64,000 nucleotides of DNA from positions 5,418,501 through 5,482,500 of the forward strand of contig NC_056550.1 of NCBI RefSeq assembly GCF_910596095.1, written 5' to 3'. This document shows positions 4,614 through 34,800 of this stretch, one piece after another. The DNA comes from Thunnus maccoyii (lineage: Eukaryota > Chordata > Actinopteri > Scombriformes > Scombridae). Made by a program: the position numbers and the translations under genes. The notes beneath the pieces were generated by a model. That model was not told the DNA's origin and did not search any database. It saw only the letters and a program-made list of their open reading frames with translations. How positions within the stretch are numbered: position 1 is the first letter of the stretch; each line of letters starts with the position of its first letter.

Positions 4614-7600
4614 TTACAAAGTGGTCGTGGAGTGCTGTGCCGTGAGTGTTCGCAGGCGGTGAGACTGTGTTTGAGAGTGTGTGTGTATGAGGCTGTGTAC
4701 AGCGTGTCTATATCTGGCAGACATCAGGTTGTACAGTAAAGGATTGACAGCAGCACTTAGGTAGAAGAGGACAGAGGACACCAGGTTAAAATACTGAGAC
4801 AGATAGTACAAAAAATACAAGTGTGTGTCACCGTGTGTGTATGTATTGTTGAAGTGTGTGTCATTGTATAGGCCTGTGGGTGTCACATCGTATGTGCTTA
4901 TGTCTGCAGTGGTAGGTGTGTGATTATGTGTGTTGTTATTCTGTGAGTTTATGCAAATGTATGAGTCTGCACAGCTCAGTCTGTTGGTGTGTGTACTAGC
5001 GCTTGTGTCAGTATGGAAACTAATATGTGCATTTTTGTTTGTGTCATTTTGTGTACTTGTCTGTGTGCTGGTATGTATTTTACTGTTTGTGTTTCTTTTC
5101 TCATTAAATCTGGATAATTGTGTATTAATACGTGTTGGATCATTGTGTGTTTCAGTGTGTGTAGTTGTATCTGTATCTGTTTCAGTGTTCAGATCCACAG
5201 TTTGTGTGCTTGTGTCTATATGTTGCCCTCTGGTGTGTGATATAACATGAGAATATAAATGTTTGTCTGTGCTCATATCATCAGTGTGTGTTTCAGTGTC
5301 TGTGTCTGCCAAGTGTGTATCTACGTTAGTGTGTGTGCTGAATTTGGTCTTTACACAGATGTCACAGAATATTTCATCTCTCTCGGTGTGAGCGTCTGCT
5401 GTCATCTTTCCAGTTGTGGACGGGGTCTTGGGGTGCTTGTCTGAGTGGCTAATGGGTTTATTAACATTGTGTATGTTAATATCTTTCTCTGACATCTGTA
5501 TGCTGACATCAGAGAGCATGTTAATGTCTTCATGTGAGTTTGTTTCCATGTATGTTTCCTGTCTGTCAGTACCAGTGCCCAGAGAAAGAGAGAATATTGT
5601 CCGACCGACATGGAAGGGCAGCCAGCAGAGGACAAACGCCAAGACAATCACTCCTGAAGGAGATGAAGAGACAGAGAGGTACAGGAGGAGCACATTAGAA
5701 TCATTGATACCTGAAGGTGATGAAAGAAGTTTCTTCCACTATTAAGCACAGATGCTGTGATTAAGTAGTCTCCAAGCACTGCCCTGATGTTGGAAAGGAC
5801 TATAGTGAGTTTACAAAATACAGCTGCAACAATTAGTCGATTAATTGATTAGTTGTCAACTAATCAATTAATAGCCAACTATTTTGATAATTGACCAATT
5901 GTTTTGAGTCATTTTTAAAGAAAAAAAATGTTAATATTGTCTGGTTTATTTGGTCTTTTGTGACAGTAAACTGAATATCTTTGGGTTGTGGACTGTTAAG
6001 GACAAAACAAAACATTTGAGGACATCACCTAGGTCAATATTTTTTACCATATTACATTTTAAAGACCAAAAAAGTAATTGATTAATCAAGAAAATAATCA
6101 ACAGATTAATCAGTACTGAAAATAATCATTAGTTGTAGCCATACTACAAAGCGCATATTAGCTGTCCATATAATGAGAAATTCTACAAAGATTTGGAAAG
6201 GCATAGTTTGACATTTTGGGAGATATACTTTTTTCCTTTCTTTCCAAGAAGAATTCTTCCCAAGGCTTAGCACAATAATTGGAAATAACGGGAAACAGTT
6301 AACTCTGTCCAAAGGTAACAAAATCCCCTTACCAGCACCACTAAAGTTAAAAAATTAACATGTTATATCTCATTTGTTTTGCTCTGACTCCAGAATGTTA
6401 CTGTGCCCAGCCAAGAAAAAGTCTGGCACATAATCTCCAAAACCACATGTCGCTTTTACACTTCAGTTTTTGTATTGTTTGTGAGGTTTAGAGTTTCTAG
6501 TAGACAGATTTGTTTCCTTCTGACAGAGCCAGGCTATAGTATAAAAGGAACTTTTAGGAAAAACATTTATTCTCTGTCTTGCCAAGAGTTAAATGAGAAG
6601 ATTGATACCACTCTGGGTAAATTGAAGCTAAACTAGGTGGTAGGTGGTAACTAAATCCACCTACTAGCACTCCTAAAGCTGACTAATTAACACTTTATAC
6701 CTTACACACATAACCCCCTGTAAAATCACAACATGACATTTTTACACTTAGGTTTTGTATGGATTAAACAAATGAGATACAAGTTCTTAATTTGTAAGAT
6801 CAGATGCCTCAGCAGAAAGCCAATCTTGAAAAATGTTACCAAAGTTGTGGACAGTTATCTTCTGTTCTGTAAAAAAAAAAAAAAAAAAAAAAAAGACGAG
6901 GTATTTGTTTTAATATTATAAAATTTAAATCTGGAGTATGGGACTTTTACATATAAATGAATGTCCATTACATTCAAGCCCTTGCCAAACCAGTTCACAA
7001 AATGCTGATTAAGCCTATCACCTCAAGGTAAATCTCTCTGTGTTTCGCAGTATACCAGAGTTTTTAAATCTGGTGTCTGTGGCGACTTTCCCACACTGGC
7101 GCACCAGTATTGATAAGTTTTAAGTCAACCAGCAATGATTGGTTTGCCAGAGCTAAAGGGGGGAGCAACCATGGATGTATTATGAGAACTGGATATAGCG
7201 TCGGAGGCGGGGCTCCATTCATTACTACGAAAGTTGCTCAGTGGTGCATGAAGCCAAAAAAGAGATAGGAAGAGAAAGGAAGAGAGCAACAGTTGTGACA
7301 GAGTAGGCTGCAGCAGGCTGCAGGCATACATCATAAGCATGCGTTGACAGTGTTTGTGTAATAACTCTCACTGCCAGAAGGGGGAAATGAAAGTTCTGCA
7401 CTGCAGGTTCAATATTTTCTATAATAGATATATACAGGGCTTATCTATTATTTTTCTTTCTCTCTTCTCCATCACGCCACAACATTAAATTGTATATTAC
7501 TGCTGTTACATGATGCAAGTAGTAATATTTTATCATTTCATGTTTTCTGACTGTTTCACTGTATGTTCTTGTTCTTTATAATAAAGCAAATACCTGAGTG

Positions 7601-10600
7601 TGTGTTTGCAAGTGTGTTTCCTCACCCAGCATTTTGACAGTGTGTCGGTGACTCTGGTCTCTACGGCTGCTCTGCGGACGGAGCCACAGTGTCCTTCCAA
7701 TCAGGCTGTAGACTAGTCCCAGGACGCAGAGTGGTATCAAGAAGTACAAGTTGGAGAGAATCATCATGGCCGACAACAGGCCGGAGGAGACAGCATAGTG
7801 TGTGCAGCGACACTCCCTCATGTCAGTCTCTTCCCTTCCTCCTCCCTCGTCTTCTTTCATTGTATTTTGCTGCTCTCTATGAACTTCCATCTTTCCCTCT
7901 CTTTCTTCTTGTTTTTCATCTTTCATTTCTCCTCCATCTCTTTGTTTCCTCTCATCTATCTCTCCTATTCCCAATTTTCTTTCCTCTTTATCTCCAACCC
8001 ATTTCAACTCCCCAAGTCTTTCACCCCATCCCTTTGTCTCACTTTCCTCCCACTTCATTCCCTCTAATCCTCCATCCATCAAGGCCATGTGTTCACTTCT
8101 GCTTTCCCCTCCACCTGTTATAAATCCTCCCTGTTCTCCTTCCCCACCTGTCCACCTTCCGTCCTCCCTCCATCCGCTGATCGCTCGCTCCTCTCCCCCA
8201 ACTTCCTCCACTCCAACCATGACCAACACCGGTGCTGCACTGACAGCTGCACCCAGCCAAAGGCAGCCAATAAGAGTCCTGGTTCTGCGCCGTGTCACTT
8301 GCGTCTTGGCCATGATTGGCCAGCAGACCGCCAGGTACCTCTCCAGGGAGAGGAAGGTGATATGGAGGATGGTACAGAAGGTGCAGCACTCTGAGAGGAA
8401 CATGGTCAGCTTACAGGCAAGGTCTCCTAAGGGCCAGGGTCTGGGCCTCCAGAGCTAGCAGGGACAGAGACAGGACAATTATTTTACCTCAGTCTCAGTC
8501 AAATGTAAGCTGTAAACGTTAGCATGTTATCAACTAGCTTTCTGTAGTAACATACACCTCATCAGTTGACAACAGTTTTGTTGGGTTACAGATTACAATA
8601 GAAAAAAAACCCAGTTCATGATAGCACATCCACTGTATGGAGAGTTTAGGCTAACGCTAGCAGCTCTGTCCTACTCTTTATTGAATTTGGGGAAGTTTAC
8701 ACTCACTCAGCCCCAGCCAAATTCATTATCTGAGATAGCGTTACGTTCTTCAAACATATTGGTTAATCCTCATCCTAAAAGCCTTTTCTCTTGTAACATT
8801 AAAAGAGAAAGGAAGTGTTTGAAAATAACAATAAACCATAAATCTATAACCTCTGTCTTGCTTGTCTAAGTATGTAAGCTAAGCATCTATATATCATATA
8901 CTGTGATCATTGTTTATTGTGTTATATGTTATGTCTGTCTATGTGTGCTGTTGACACTGTGTACGGAAGGTTCTTTTCCATGATGTACTGAAAACAAATT
9001 CCACCAACTCTGGTCGAGTGGCCATTAAATTAAAGTGAAGTGAAGTATGTTCTTCAATAATGCCTCCATCTGAGTTTCGAGAGATTTTCCCAATACCCAT
9101 TTTGTCACCTTACTGTACCCCCACAGTTTTGCTAGCATATTGTGATAATGTGTGATAATTACATAGGTTCTGCTAAATATCAGTGTTATTACCACCTTTT
9201 TTCTCAAACGTCTGTTTTATTTTCCAGTGCTATATTTACAAATATGCTTTCTCCATTCCTCTAAAATACCCATTTTTTACTCCCTCCCCATGATCTTGTT
9301 TCCTTCCACTGCACCTACATTTAAGTACCAGAAGAAACCATAGAGTATTTTATTAGTTTCTGATTCGTACAACAAATTGACACTGTAAAACATGACCTGT
9401 ATTATAAAGTGTTATCAATGTATTTACTCACACTTAAATGTCATGTATTTTCCATGCCACTGTGCAGAGGAAATGAAAGAAGAAGGACATAAGAACACTC
9501 TGGGTATGACATGACTAGTGAGTATAATAGAACAAAACTTAATTTGGCAGCAGGGATCCCCCTGAGGGAAAGGTTGCGAGGGCTTGTTTAAACTACTATT
9601 GGAGCACACCGCTATTCTCAACAGAAGCAAATGCATCATGCCCCCCTCTTCTGTAAATGCACCTTGAGGCAGAGCAAAACATCAGATATACAGTATGAGG
9701 GTCAAATCATATTGTATACCGCAACAACATGCGTGCATTAAGAAAAGGTGTACCTTATACAGATCCAGAGGCAGCAGCAGGAGTATCAACAGATCACTAA
9801 CAGCCATGCTGCTCAGGTAGAGGTAGGTAGAGCCTCTCATGTGTGGACGGAGCCAAACCACCAGAATTGTTAGTATATTTCCCAGAAGACCAAGGAGCAT
9901 CAGTGGAATGTAAATGACAGTCACGCACACTAGAAAATGACAGCATTGATATGTTGTTTCAGAACCACTTTGCATGTATGTGAGAACTGTACACATTGTC
10001 AGCCAAGATAGGAAAACGAAGAATAACAAGTTTTGAAGGTTCGTTCACAGATATCAATAATACTGCACCATGAGCTCATAAATACTAGCACAGCTAAGGG
10101 AATATTTTCACATTTTGGGAAATTGGCATTGCTTTTTTGCTGAGAGTTACTTGAAAAAATTGACCTGGTGTTAGCTTCATATTTATGTACAGATATGAGA
10201 GTGGTATTTATCTTATCATCTAATTCTAGGCAAGAAACGAAATAAGTGTTTCCCAAAATGTGGACCTATTCCTTTAAGACCAAAGTAAAGAGGAGAAAGA
10301 TCTGATGGTGAGTTTTGAATTGTACTGTCCAGACACCACAGCTCACTTTGTTATTGTTTATTTTATTTTAATTGCAAAAATCTTGGCTGATGCAGCTTAA
10401 CATTTCCATTTAATTTCCATTTACACAACACGATCATGCATTAATACTTTTTTTTCTATGATTTTTTACCCACCCAACTCAATGAATCCAAACATAGGTT
10501 CCTCCCACTGGCACTCGTTGTTTAAGCAGTTCTCTGGGAGGTTTGATGCTATGCCACAGTTTTCATCTTCACAACCACTGCCCATGTCTCCCAACTCCAT

Positions 10601-14387: not shown

Positions 14388-17127
14388 ACGTGTGCACGTG
14401 TGCGTGTGTGTGCGCGCGCGGGTCGCAGGTCGTCTTTCCCAGCTGTCTTCCTGCAGCAGTCATGGCAGGGTGTGTGTTGCTCAGCGGAGGAACAACTCTA
14501 CCTCACCCAAAATCAAAGTGGATTTTGACCAAAGCACAGGTAAGCAAATACACCTTGTGTGGTCTGAGGGAGCTTGAAGGTTTTTGTCTTCCCTTCAGCA
14601 ATATGTGTATGAGGTGAAAAAAACAACATTTGAAAGTGTACTCAGTGTTTCCCCATAATAGAACAGGCCTTGTGGGCCACCAGGCCAAAAAAAAAATTTT
14701 TGATTACCTGACATTTGTCAGGTAAAAAGGCAAAGTAGAACTTCTGACATGTCTCTTGCTGTACTGATGGAGTTAGTGCTGGGGAAATGGACATCATACT
14801 AAATTTATAAAAATATTAGGTCAACATGGAGGAAGTTTTGATTACACAATGAAGCTCAAACATCCAAGTGAAGGAACAACAGCCTCTTAAATTTGAGAAC
14901 TGGCAGCTTTTCCTTGGTCTAAAATGATTGTCGATGGACCATCTTTGGGTTTTAGACTGTTGGTTTGACAAAACAAGACATCTTATAACATCACCTTAGC
15001 TTGTAGGAAATTGAAATGGAAATGTTGCACAGTTTTCAGATATATTATAAACGAAGTGATTCATTGAGGTAAACATCTTCAAATTAGCCAGTGATGAAAA
15101 TGATCATTACTTGCAGCCCCAGATACACAGTACCAGTCATAAATGTGGACATACCTTCTGACAGGTACTGTAAGTGTAATGATTGAGTTAGCACATCCGA
15201 ACACATGCAAGATTGAAGTTTTTATTCTCTCCCTCTGCTTACTTTCCTTTTTACTCTTTCATGTCACTTCTTTTCCTTTTGAGATGAATCTTTAGGAAAG
15301 GCGCGTCAGTGAATTCAGGTAAAAGATCAGCCTCTCTCTCTCTTTCTGTAGGTGTGGCGGTGATGCGTATGCAGAGTCCGCCAGTCAACAGCCTCAGTTT
15401 AGATTTCCTCACAGAATTGTGCATCAACCTGGAGAAGCTGGAGATGGATAAGAGCTGCCGAGGCCTCATCATCACCTCGGTACAGTAGCACCTCATTGTT
15501 TGCAGTCACTGCTGGAGTGTGTGAACATTTTTTAATATCGCAATACAAATTGACAGTTGTGTGTGTGTGCGTGCATTGCTGTGATCAGAGTCAACCCAAG
15601 GTGTTCTCAGCTGGACTGGACATCATGGAGATGTACGGGAAGAGTCCAGAGCGCTGTGGAGAGTTCTGGAAAGCCGTTCAGGAGATGTGGCTGAAACTCT
15701 ACAGCTCCAACATGATCACTATAGCTGCAATCAACGTACGTATGAAACAAAACCCAGGGTATTATTTTGTCTATGTATCATGCAAGAAGTCATCAGTTTT
15801 TACATTTCCAGCTGTAGCGCCAACATTTTGATTAGAACAAACACAAGACATGGTAGTTTGTCGACCCCTCCACAGGGTTCCAGTCCTGCAGGCGGCTGTC
15901 TGATGTCTCTGACATGTGACTACAGGATAATGGCAGACAACCCGCGTTACAGCATCGGCCTTAATGAGACGCAGCTCGGCATCGTGGCACCGTTTTGGTA
16001 AGGAATTAGGAGAATGGCAATGGCCATGACAGTTGTGGCGGTGATGTTTATGACGATAGTATTGGTCATGCCTGGCACTGTTTAACCTGTTGTAACACTG
16101 AAGTGAACACTGGCGCTGTCTGCAGGTTTAAGGACACCATGGTTAATACAGTGGGCCACCGGACCACAGAGATGGCCCTGGAACTGGGGCTGCTCTACAG
16201 CTCCTCAGAGGCCCTGAAGATAGGCCTGGTGGACCAACTGGTCCCAGAAGACCAGGTCCTGACCACAGCCACACAGACCATGACCAAGTGGCTGGCCATT
16301 CCAGGTATATAGCAGATAAGTAGGAGGGCAGGCCACAATTAGAAACTCTAAATTGCCAGTAGATGCACTACTTATTTTCTTTGTTCAACATTTTTATCAG
16401 GACTCACCCTGTAATGTTGAAATATCATATATATTGGTGTAATATTATGTTGATTGTAAATTTTGTTTATACTGACCTCCAGTGGTTGAAGGTATCCCCT
16501 TGCTGTTAAGATGTAGAAATGTACTCCTGGGTGTGTCAGTACACTGTGCCTTCACTGTTGGATGTGGTTACAAGTTTTTGTGTTTTTTAACACTAGTGCC
16601 ATACAAAATGAAAAGTGCCATACAAATAAAGGTGGTTGCTATGATGATTATTACTGTTATCCATCAGTGACATTAGGTGTGGTCAGAGGTGCAAAAGACT
16701 TAACATAAAAAATACAGCTTTGTTCCAGTAAAAGAAAAAAGTGAAGATAAGAGAATCAAAAGGAACCCCTGACACACATGTATATATCACTGTTCTATTT
16801 CATTTCAATTCAGACAAATATTGATTAATAAAATATGAATAATTATTTTACTGAGCCATGTAGCGGAGACTCATCCAGAATTATTTTTAAGGCCACTGTA
16901 GGTCCCTGGACTCCACTGTTGAAATTGGTGAGCTAACTGTTCATCTTTTCACTTTTACAGACCACGCCAGACAGATCACCAAGTCCATGATGAGGAAGCC
17001 AACCATCGACAAGCTAACGTCCAACAGAGAGGCTGACATCCAAAACTTTGTCAGTTTCATCACCAAAGACTCCATTCAGAAATCACTTCGTATGTATCTG
17101 GAGATGCTTAAAAAGAGAAAAAGCTAG
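12157..17127 (+). CDS. eci1: Enoyl-CoA delta isomerase 1, mitochondrial
   Basis: Seven coding exons: 12157-12199, 14429-14539, 15352-15479, 15589-15735, 15876-15997, 16126-16304 and 16961-17127. All introns are GT-AG and phases close exactly, giving 298 residues (human ECI1 is about 300). The enzyme shifts cis-3 or trans-3 double bonds of enoyl-CoA to trans-2 during beta-oxidation of unsaturated fatty acids in the matrix. The first about 50 residues are Arg/Ser-rich with almost no acid, like a mitochondrial presequence. The crotonase core follows: PPVNSLSL, VFSAGLD (residues 99-105) and SSPAGGCL (145-152) as oxyanion-hole loops, and LNETQLGI with the family's catalytic Glu at 174. The C-terminal helix NFVSFI(T)KDSIQKSL is typical. 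The ATG lies 40 bp downstream of a consensus CRE. Exon 2 is the least certain: its acceptor follows a long GT tract, though the phase fits and the downstream KIKVDFDQSTG matches the family. Confidence 0.96.
13575..14117. repeat. Second copy of repeat E inside eci1 intron 1
   Basis: It shares long near-identical stretches with 1070-1754, for example the runs around TCAAGTGGATATCTGCCACA and GAAAGATATCTACTTGATTTG. Its left end is shortened, and its right end GAACCCGTCCTTTAAG is kept. Confidence 0.7.
14331..14421. repeat. (TG)n/(CG)n microsatellite abutting eci1 exon 2
   Basis: Around 25 uninterrupted TG units, then a mixed TG/CG/CA stretch ending in GTGCGCGCGCG, only a few bases before the predicted acceptor at 14427-14428. 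Translation of this tract creates false Cys-Val open frames. Confidence 0.9.
16470..16575 (+). repeat. Repeat F, with an inverted copy at 19980-20085
   Basis: TGACCTCCAGTGGTTG ... CACTGTTGGATGTGGTTACAAG is matched in reverse by CTTGTAACCACATCCAACAGTG ... ACTGGAGGTCA at about 19980-20085. One copy lies in eci1 intron 6, the other in dnase1 intron 7, so the two genes share an inverted pair 3.5 kb apart. Confidence 0.6.
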
Positions 17128-23857: not shown

Positions 23858-24063
<206 letters not shown>

Positions 24064-31826: not shown

Positions 31827-34800
31827 ATGAGTGACGTGGTGCCTCCCACAGCTCTCAGTGAAGTCCAGCTCCGGTTCCTCTGCCACGATGACATAGAGAG
31901 TGTCAAGCTGCTCTGTGGTGATTGGTTCCCAATCGAGTAAGAATCAGTTTGAAAGCATTCTATGAAATCTAAATCCACACTTTTTGGGACATGAAAGCTA
32001 ACCTGTCTCGACCTTTGACACCTTAGATACCCAGACTCATGGTATCAGGACATCACCTCCAACAAGAAGTTCTTCTCCCTCGCTGCCACCTTCAGAGGAG
32101 GCATCGTGGGAATGATTGTGGCCGAGATCAAAGGCCGGACCAAAGTACACAAAGAGGTATGATGTTCCACCCTGCTTATATGGACTCTATTCTGTATTTG
32201 TGTACTCTGCAGGGATGGCATGTCTCACAGGGGGAAGGTAAGGCCTATGAGATATGCTGGAATAAGAGAAAAGCAGAGTGTGTGTTGTGTACAGTGTAGG
32301 TGTGTAGCTGCATGAATTTACATTTTGGTGTCACCGAGTGTGTTGTTAGTGCAGTTCATCCACTCTCACTCAAAGTTCTTAAGTGGAACATTGACATTGT
32401 AGATTCTCTTTTTAGTCAGCTAATTAGACGAACCAGATGCCCTTGACTGAGTAAGGCTCGGTCATTAGACAGGAATAAGAAATGAGAGAGAAAATGTTGA
32501 AAGAAGGGCTGCAGCTAACTCATTTTTTTGTCGGTTTATGACAACAACAGGCTGTATGAGGAAGTGGTATAACTTAATTAGAAAAGGTCTAACTCATGTC
32601 ACAGTAGGATACTTGACAGATGTACAGTTATTCCACTGGACTGGTATCAGAAATCCACTCACTTCAGGCTATAGTTTTTATAAGCTGTTCACTCAGTGGA
32701 TAGAGTGCCTGTTGTCAAAATTTAATTTCCCTTTGGAACAGGATTTGCATTTCGGAAGCTACCTTCCTAGTAGGTAATTTGCCTAGGCATGATGAGGACT
32801 GTGTAACAGGCAGGTCGCAGAGGGAGCACGCAGGGCATGTTCAGAGTCGCTCCAAATTACAGAGCTGCAGATCCATTTAATTGATATTTTTCAATATAAT
32901 ACTGAGTCAAATGTAAGTTTTATTTCAAAATCCGTTGTGGATTGTAAAATAATCTGTTTTATATTTATAGAAAATGTCGGGCCTTAATCCTTAATTTTCT
33001 CTCCATCTTTGTCTATGTGTGTGTTAGGATGGAGACATCCTGGCCTCCAGTTTCCCTGTGGACACACAGGTAGCCTACATCCTCAGCCTGGGAGTGGTCA
33101 AAGAGTTTAGGAAACATGGCATAGGTAAGGTTCCCCTTTCTCAAGAGCTCTCACGCACATTACATTTACTTACATTCACTTGCTTGAGATTTACCCAAAC
33201 CTTAACCATGACCACCACATGCTAAACTCCAATGTTTACATTTACCTTTTAACCTAACCCTTAACAAAAACCACAAAAGTCCTCACCCTTAACACCCTTA
33301 ATTGTTAACTTTGTGGGGGTTCAGTTTACATCTCCACAAGGTATCTCCCACACACAAACACACTAGTAGAGACCTATACCTACATTTTAATCGCATATAC
33401 TATCTCACTAGATAAATAATAAAAGATGAGTTGATTCAAATCGACAAAGATTTTACAGTGAACTGGTCCAACTCCAGCAAAGATTATCAGGTCTTCATCC
33501 ACTCTTCAGTTGATGATGGACCTCTTGAATGAACATACAGCATTGTTCCAGAGTCCAGTGTATGAAAAACATGAAACAGAGAACATCACATTCAGTGACA
33601 TTATTTATGACTTCTGGATGACTGGATAGTCAACTTATGTTTTAACAACTATTTATGGAGGAGGTGGGTGTTCATTCTTGTACACTGAATTGAAAAATTC
33701 ATAAATATTGACAAATGCTATTCTGTTTAGAGCTGCAACAATTAGTCAATAATTTGTCCAATAAATTAATCACCAACTATTTTCATAATTGATCAATCAT
33801 TTTGAGCCATTATTTAAGAAAAAAATGTCAAACTTTTTGATTCCAGCTTCTCAAATGTGAATATTTTCTGGTTTCTTTAGTCTTCTAAAACAGTCAACTG
33901 AATATTTTGGGGTTCTGGACAAAACATTTGAGGATGTCATTTATGGCTTTGGGAAACAATGATCAACATTTTTCATTTTATAGACCAAACAACTAATTGA
34001 TTAATCGAGAAAATAATCAACAGATTAATCGATAATGAAAATAATCATTAGTTGCAGCCCTACTTCTGTAGGTAGTTTTGTCTTTTGGGAGAGCTGCCAG
34101 ACTGTCATGAATAATTAATAACATAAAGGTTATGCACAAATGTCTCCATAACCTTATACACACTTTGTTGCAACTTCTGGCACCAGAAACAAATGGAGAA
34201 AACTCATCCCTTCTTTCTCTGTGTAGCTCTTGTGTGTTCTCTCTATTGATGAACAGAGAGCAGGAGACATTTCAACCATGACTCAGAATACTGTAAGCTT
34301 TCCTCTCACTAACTGAGAATCTCTCTCCATCCGACCATTCAGGCTCCCTACTGCTGGACAGTCTGAAGGAGCATATATCAACGACAGCCCAGGACCACTG
34401 TAAGGCAATCTACCTGCACGTCCTCACCACTAACAACACTGCCATCCACTTCTATGAGAACAGGGACTTCAGGCAGCACCACTACCTGCCCTACTACTAC
34501 TCCATACGAGGGGTCCTCAAAGACGGATTCACATATGTGCTCTACATCAACGGGGGTCATCCACCCTGGACAATATTATATCCTTTTGTTGAAGGAAGAA
34601 CAGGAGACACTTACTCACAACTGTTTAGGGGACAGTTTGTATTTGTGTTTCACTCTTACATCAGAACTTTTTTTGCTCCAATGAGTACAATCTTTATCAT
34701 CTTGATTAGAGGGGAAGAGATGCTCTTCTTTTTTGTAGATCCTTATATTTTCAGGCAATCAAACAGACAAATCAAGTAGATAAACCAAACATAAATGTGG

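Follow-up and report, generated by a model that had tools for sequence, protein, structure and literature searches.

Two long extracellular loops in a predicted ghrelin/motilin-type receptor of Thunnus maccoyii

Described receptors with long loops

Few loops of class A receptors are as short as the third extracellular loop (ECL3), which lies next to the peptide pocket. Teleost receptors GHS-Ra-LR2a/b are ghrelin/motilin paralogues, like the receptor considered here, and the LR2a representatives carry one oversized loop, called ICL3, with a length of 90-237 residues and of 275 residues in Fundulus; gene ECI1 is the neighbor of GHS-Ra-LR2a in some species, while the other flank is represented by TAC4 or PDXDC1 (PMC4797157). 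All 23 rows for LR2a/b in Table 2 of this paper give protein lengths of 303-577 residues, including the four rows with the ECI1 neighbor (465, 543, 577 and 576 residues). ECL3 is never named in its main text. In another survey, fish receptor sets near MLNR and GHSR were named MLNRB and GHSR2 (PMC6504862). The available part of PMC8419268 is silent on long loops in the motilin receptors of fish.

An enlarged extracellular loop was described in the same family for GHS-R1a-LR, the percomorph GHSR; it is ECL2 only and comprises 43 residues in tilapia (PMC3713435). Outside this family, ligand binding by the human C3a receptor, a peptide receptor that also belongs to class A, involves a flexible ECL2 of about 172 residues, and C3a is bound with high affinity only if the aspartates at both ends of this loop are present; the available part of the source mentions no long ECL3 (PMC10518620). 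A long flexible ECL3 between TM6 and TM7 is present in Smoothened, but this is a class F receptor, and no repeat origin is described for its loop in the part available (PMC6408332). A repeat-born long ECL3 in a class A receptor was not found among the matches listed in open-licence PMC papers, and the matches listed there for exitrons, microsatellites and dinucleotide repeats contained nothing to the point.

In the receptor of Thunnus maccoyii described below, ICL3 is ordinary, being 6 residues shorter than that of human GHSR in the alignment, and the long loops are ECL2 and ECL3, unlike in GHS-Ra-LR2a. The most probable reading, to which a probability of about three in four is assigned, is an intact class A gene, a third ghrelin/motilin paralogue resembling GHS-Ra-LR2a, with growth of about 250 codons in ECL3 and of about 127 in ECL2.

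Gene structure and place in the receptor family

The window, that is, the whole analyzed stretch of 64,000 nucleotides (C18:5418501-5482500), contains on its minus strand a receptor gene of three coding exons, the boundaries of which were drawn from homology and GT/AG sites. Joined in frame, the exons encode 703 residues, of which 326 form the core once both loop inserts are removed. The features are as follows:

9754-9996, minus strand: exon 1, short N-terminus, TM1 and TM2; the open frame has its first ATG at 9996, and homology to human GHSR starts with residue 21
7626-8454, minus strand: exon 2, from ECL1 to TM5/ICL3, including the ECL2 insert; homology and GT/AG sites
7825-8205, minus strand: ECL2 insert, 127 residues, rich in E, G, R and K, net charge -15, purine-rich (GA-rich) DNA; 0, 9 and 7 stops in the three frames
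4614-5653, minus strand: exon 3, TM6, ECL3 insert, TM7, C-terminal tail and stop codon; acceptor score 8.7
4821-5570, minus strand: ECL3 insert, 250 residues, rich in Thr, Asp, Asn, Ser and His, with 4 Cys and a net charge of -18; the frame is open and shows three-base periodicity

A further 5' exon possibly precedes exon 1; the last exon, which the sequence-only reading had labeled exon 4, is exon 3 in the present gene model.

The 7tm_1 profile match of 155.9 bits (cut-off 30.5) places the product among class A (rhodopsin-like) receptors, and motifs ERY, CWxP and NPxxY are all present. The best relatives with solved structures in the PDB are human GHSR (274 bits) and MLNR (241), followed by NTSR1 (151) and NMUR2 (145); judged by these scores, the receptor is a member of the ghrelin/motilin receptor subfamily, as had been proposed from the letters alone. 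The residues D99, C116, E124, M213, S217 and H280 were named as key for GHSR (PMC3713435, PMC4797157), and all six, as well as the ECL2 cysteine, are retained. By this sequence evidence, the receptor core looks functional, while two of its loops have grown. Loss of function, with the loops drifting ahead of a pseudogene state, would agree with the two large low-complexity inserts, with the short N-terminus and with the lower dN/dS of GHS-R1a/2a in comparison with the LR clusters (PMC4797157), but the 703 codons contain no stop or frameshift, the splice sites are GT/AG, and the key residues tested are in place, which makes such a loss highly implausible.

The gene contains an extra intron in ECL1 (intron 1, 8455-9753, after PLDLYK) with a weak donor (score 0.28). 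This intron is absent from the two nearest paralogues, in which TM1 to TM5 lie in a single open frame.

These two paralogues were found on C16 and C6 of the same genome. The C16 gene matches GHSR with 442 bits and MLNR with 336, and by these matches looks like the GHSR orthologue of the genome; it also appears to be the orthologue of GHS-R1a-LR and is a separate gene. The C6 gene, with 380 bits to MLNR and 358 to GHSR, looks like the MLNR orthologue. The receptor of the window is not the best match of the genome to either GHSR or MLNR. In pairwise comparison, made without a tree, the identity of its core is 58.5% to the C16 gene and 50.4% to the C6 gene, while the C16 and C6 genes share 55.1%. 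The receptor thus compared looks like a third ghrelin/motilin paralogue.

An exon of the enoyl-CoA hydratase/isomerase type, which we take to be ECI1, is located at 15585-16001 on the plus strand (ECH_1, 40.5 bits, cut-off 27). Under this gene name, the ECI1 flank of GHS-Ra-LR2a is present. The motif F.GLM, sought for the TAC4 flank, was not found in the window or in the 8.5 kb to its left. The receptor, with this ECI1-like neighbor but without a large ICL3, is regarded as resembling teleost clade GHS-Ra-LR2a and not as an assigned member of it. Its 703 residues exceed every one of the 23 tabulated LR2a/b lengths.

The loop called ICL3 in LR2a may be the same kind of loop as one of those found here. 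H280, a TM6 residue, is placed in TMD7 of the LR2a clade, and a 275-residue ICL3 in a protein of 501 residues leaves 226, less than the rest of the core needs (PMC4797157). From these two points we infer that the helix numbers in that paper are shifted and that its LR2a ICL3 is possibly a mis-numbered ECL2.

Other features were recorded in the window and beside it. In a compound microsatellite at 23861-24060, 28.5 perfect copies of AC precede 72 AT copies at 97%. The open frame 34297-34779 on the plus strand matched acetyltransferase and Nudix models below threshold and presumably resembles NAA60. To the left of the window, the open frames of flanking locus L048 (2394-3501) look like parts of a LINE reverse transcriptase.

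Reading frame and splicing of the third extracellular loop

In exon 3, the 250 extra codons are located between TM6 (CWLPFHVGR) and LSQYFN. In the alignment to human GHSR (PDB), residues 385 and 641 of the receptor correspond to 293 and 299 of the human chain. The span from CWxP to NPxxY comprises 299 residues, as against 41-53 in the 34 other receptors compared from this genome, with 49 in the C16 and 46 in the C6 paralogue; for this comparison, a motif search of 48 loci gave 38 rows and, after removal of four rows repeating a gene, 34 distinct ones, a span being obtained only from loci with both motifs in one open frame. The tripeptide LSQ before YFN fits the family, since the C6 paralogue has LSQ, the C16 paralogue LSE and human GHSR ISQ. 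The exon between TM6 and LSQYFN had been described from the sequence as open over some 255-258 codons; the frame is indeed open from TM6 to the stop codon, while the insert itself comprises 250.

The sense strand of the ECL3 insert contains 39 stop triplets, distributed among the frames as 0, 10 and 29. A frame 0 without stops was not obtained in any of 20,000 dinucleotide shuffles or 20,000 second-order Markov sequences of the insert; when repeated 7-mer stop contexts are counted once, which leaves 34, the chance of an empty frame is (2/3)^34, or about 1e-6. Every third of the insert lacks in-frame stops, with 12-13 stops divided between its two remaining frames. Three-base periodicity in the successive thirds was matched by 2, 0 and 1 of 1,000 simulations, and that of the whole insert (chi2 52.9) by none of 2,000 second-order Markov sequences and by none of 2,000 stop-free simulations, the mean of which was 10.4. 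An open frame of 750 bases was absent from all 2,612 overlapping windows of the non-receptor sequence examined, taken at 50-base steps on both strands, and from all 12 AC-rich windows; 351 open windows found in a further window set were all located within loci fetched for receptors. The open frame, the periodicity in each third and the absence of open non-receptor windows allow the stretch to be taken as protein-coding throughout. Accordingly, the ECL3 extension is very probably in frame and coding. Among maximal internal repeats of at least 8 bases, pure AC runs excluded, 23 of 47 pairs are spaced by multiples of three, a raw count for which no null was run.

Splicing was considered with a hand-written splice matrix, which was applied to each GT and AG of the insert region. 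The introns of the gene itself score, as donor plus acceptor, 0.28 + 2.87 (intron 1) and 3.72 + 8.74 (intron 2). Two features of exon 3 are relevant:

4794-5507, minus strand: best in-phase candidate intron by splice scoring, 714 bases, phase 0, unproven; without it, little of the insert and none of the conserved LSQ would remain
4794-4813, minus strand: acceptor-like tract, score 4.16, spanning the codons ahead of YFN, those of LSQ among them

If the stretch were mostly a constitutive intron, such as these 714 bases, and were open by chance, the mature ECL3 would be ordinary or slightly extended. The acceptor-like tract exceeds the acceptor of intron 1 (2.87), while the same place scores -2.2 and -4.4 in the two nearest paralogues, and the best in-phase pair, from 5507 to 4793 (-1.01 + 4.16 = 3.15), equals the sum of intron 1. 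Acanthopterygian GPCRs are reported to have gained introns, and in P2Y2 one such gain lies in the loop between TM6 and TM7 (PMC3151243). Removal of the candidate intron would give a protein of 465 residues, the tabulated length of the ECI1-linked medaka LR2a (465; tilapia 451), and the excess of the unspliced product over all 23 tabulated LR2a/b proteins points the same way; however, the three other ECI1-linked proteins, with 543, 576 and 577 residues, are longer than the core plus the ECL2 insert here (326 + 127) (PMC4797157). An open in-phase frame (P about 1e-6 to 1e-7) with coding periodicity over its full length is not expected of an intron. The donors of the insert region are weak: the best of the 25 GT sites (0.57) lies at 4831, so close to the end that its use would leave the insert in place, and among useful sites the maximum is -1.0, as against 0.28 and 3.7 for the donors of the gene itself. 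Moreover, 54% of 400 random windows contain a pair scoring as well as 3.15, and pairs sparing both TM6 and the conserved LSQ, which the best pair would delete, reach a sum of only -0.13. The most obvious pair had been regarded in the sequence-only reading as out of phase and destructive for LSQ, and this holds, the donor at 5572 being in phase 1 and the acceptor before 4793 in phase 0, with loss of LSQ. Splice scores by themselves neither support nor exclude an intron, and most of the work is done by the frame and the periodicity. Because of these two, an in-frame intron, the main alternative named earlier, is unlikely, and its constitutive form is quite improbable.

The same stretch could also be an exitron, a coding segment that is usually retained but is lost from some transcripts by in-phase splicing, which would yield receptors with long and with short loops. 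In favor of this are the coding frame together with a well-scoring internal acceptor-like tract and candidates of matching phase. The weakness of the donors, the equally good pairs in random windows and the loss of LSQ from the best short form speak against it, and this arrangement is regarded as rather unlikely. The preferred reading is thus that of a retained coding insert in ECL3.

Composition, origin and meaning of the inserts

The 250 residues of the ECL3 insert include 52 Thr, 26 Asp, 24 Asn, 23 Ser and 23 His. Runs of (AC)3 or longer cover 103 of its 750 bases, while 2,000 mononucleotide shuffles gave a mean of 8 and a maximum of 44. The proposal that the insert is built from ACACAC-type sequence is therefore borne out for its later three quarters, where such runs are enriched, but not for the first quarter, since none is present in 5380-5570; AC slippage accordingly does not explain the whole insert.

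Several N-X-T sites had been noted, and five are present (NDT, NNT, NHT, NDT and NNT). This number does not exceed the approximately 7.0 sequons expected from composition, and with Ser+Thr at 30% and Pro at only 2.4% the suggested mucin-like character was not supported. The suggested binding of metal fares no better by the sequence, as the 23 His form the pattern HxH only once. The four cysteines are arranged in two pairs (insert residues 69 and 72, 200 and 206), which might form disulphides. AlphaFold2 prediction for the insert alone gave a mean pLDDT of 32.7, with no residue at 70 or above; this weakly points to disorder, being a single-sequence prediction.

Two other sources of the insert were considered and rejected. 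A dispersed element was sought in the genome of the species (782 Mb, 54 contigs), and both DNA and protein searches returned this place alone, the DNA search skipping simple repeats and only the best candidates being scored. A tandem array was sought by Tandem Repeats Finder with a minimum score of 40, which listed none within 4821-5570. One scan of viral contigs found no relative of exon 3.

The ECL2 insert was absent from the sequence-only reading. The probability of its empty frame 0, given 0, 9 and 7 stops, is about 0.0015. Both inserts are acidic, with net charges of -15 in ECL2 and -18 in ECL3.

The most likely mechanism would be repeat slippage together with in-frame duplication, which would have lengthened the loops from AC-rich sequence in ECL3 and GA-rich sequence in ECL2. 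Loops tolerant of a change in length would have taken up this growth, while selection would have held the frame open and preserved the seven helices, ERY, CWxP and NPxxY, and the ligand-contact residues. The frame would have stayed open since any stop in these loops would cost the receptor its TM7. The product would have two acidic, probably disordered flaps over the peptide pocket. Such flaps could act as a flexible polyanionic lid, slowing basic peptide ligands or gathering them electrostatically; this role is modeled on the long ECL2 of the C3a receptor, the nearest working analogue.

An oversized loop has already been published for GHS-Ra-LR2a, as ICL3 (PMC4797157); new here are two long extracellular loops and a predicted length of 703 residues. 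A bolder version, which is held only tentatively, is that a translated, repeat-born ECL3 domain of about 250 residues and a separately born acidic ECL2 insert are two polyanionic flaps of independent repeat origin that guard one hormone pocket and may be switchable by in-phase splicing of ECL3.

If translated, an in-frame, largely repeat-derived ECL3 longer by about 250 residues, with ligand contacts retained, would show what loop length a class A receptor tolerates, and the gene would be a natural experiment on the conversion of simple repeats into extracellular protein. The comparison also suggests that the big loops of the LR2a-like clade are extracellular, and not intracellular as printed, in which case the pharmacology of these receptors would be read differently.
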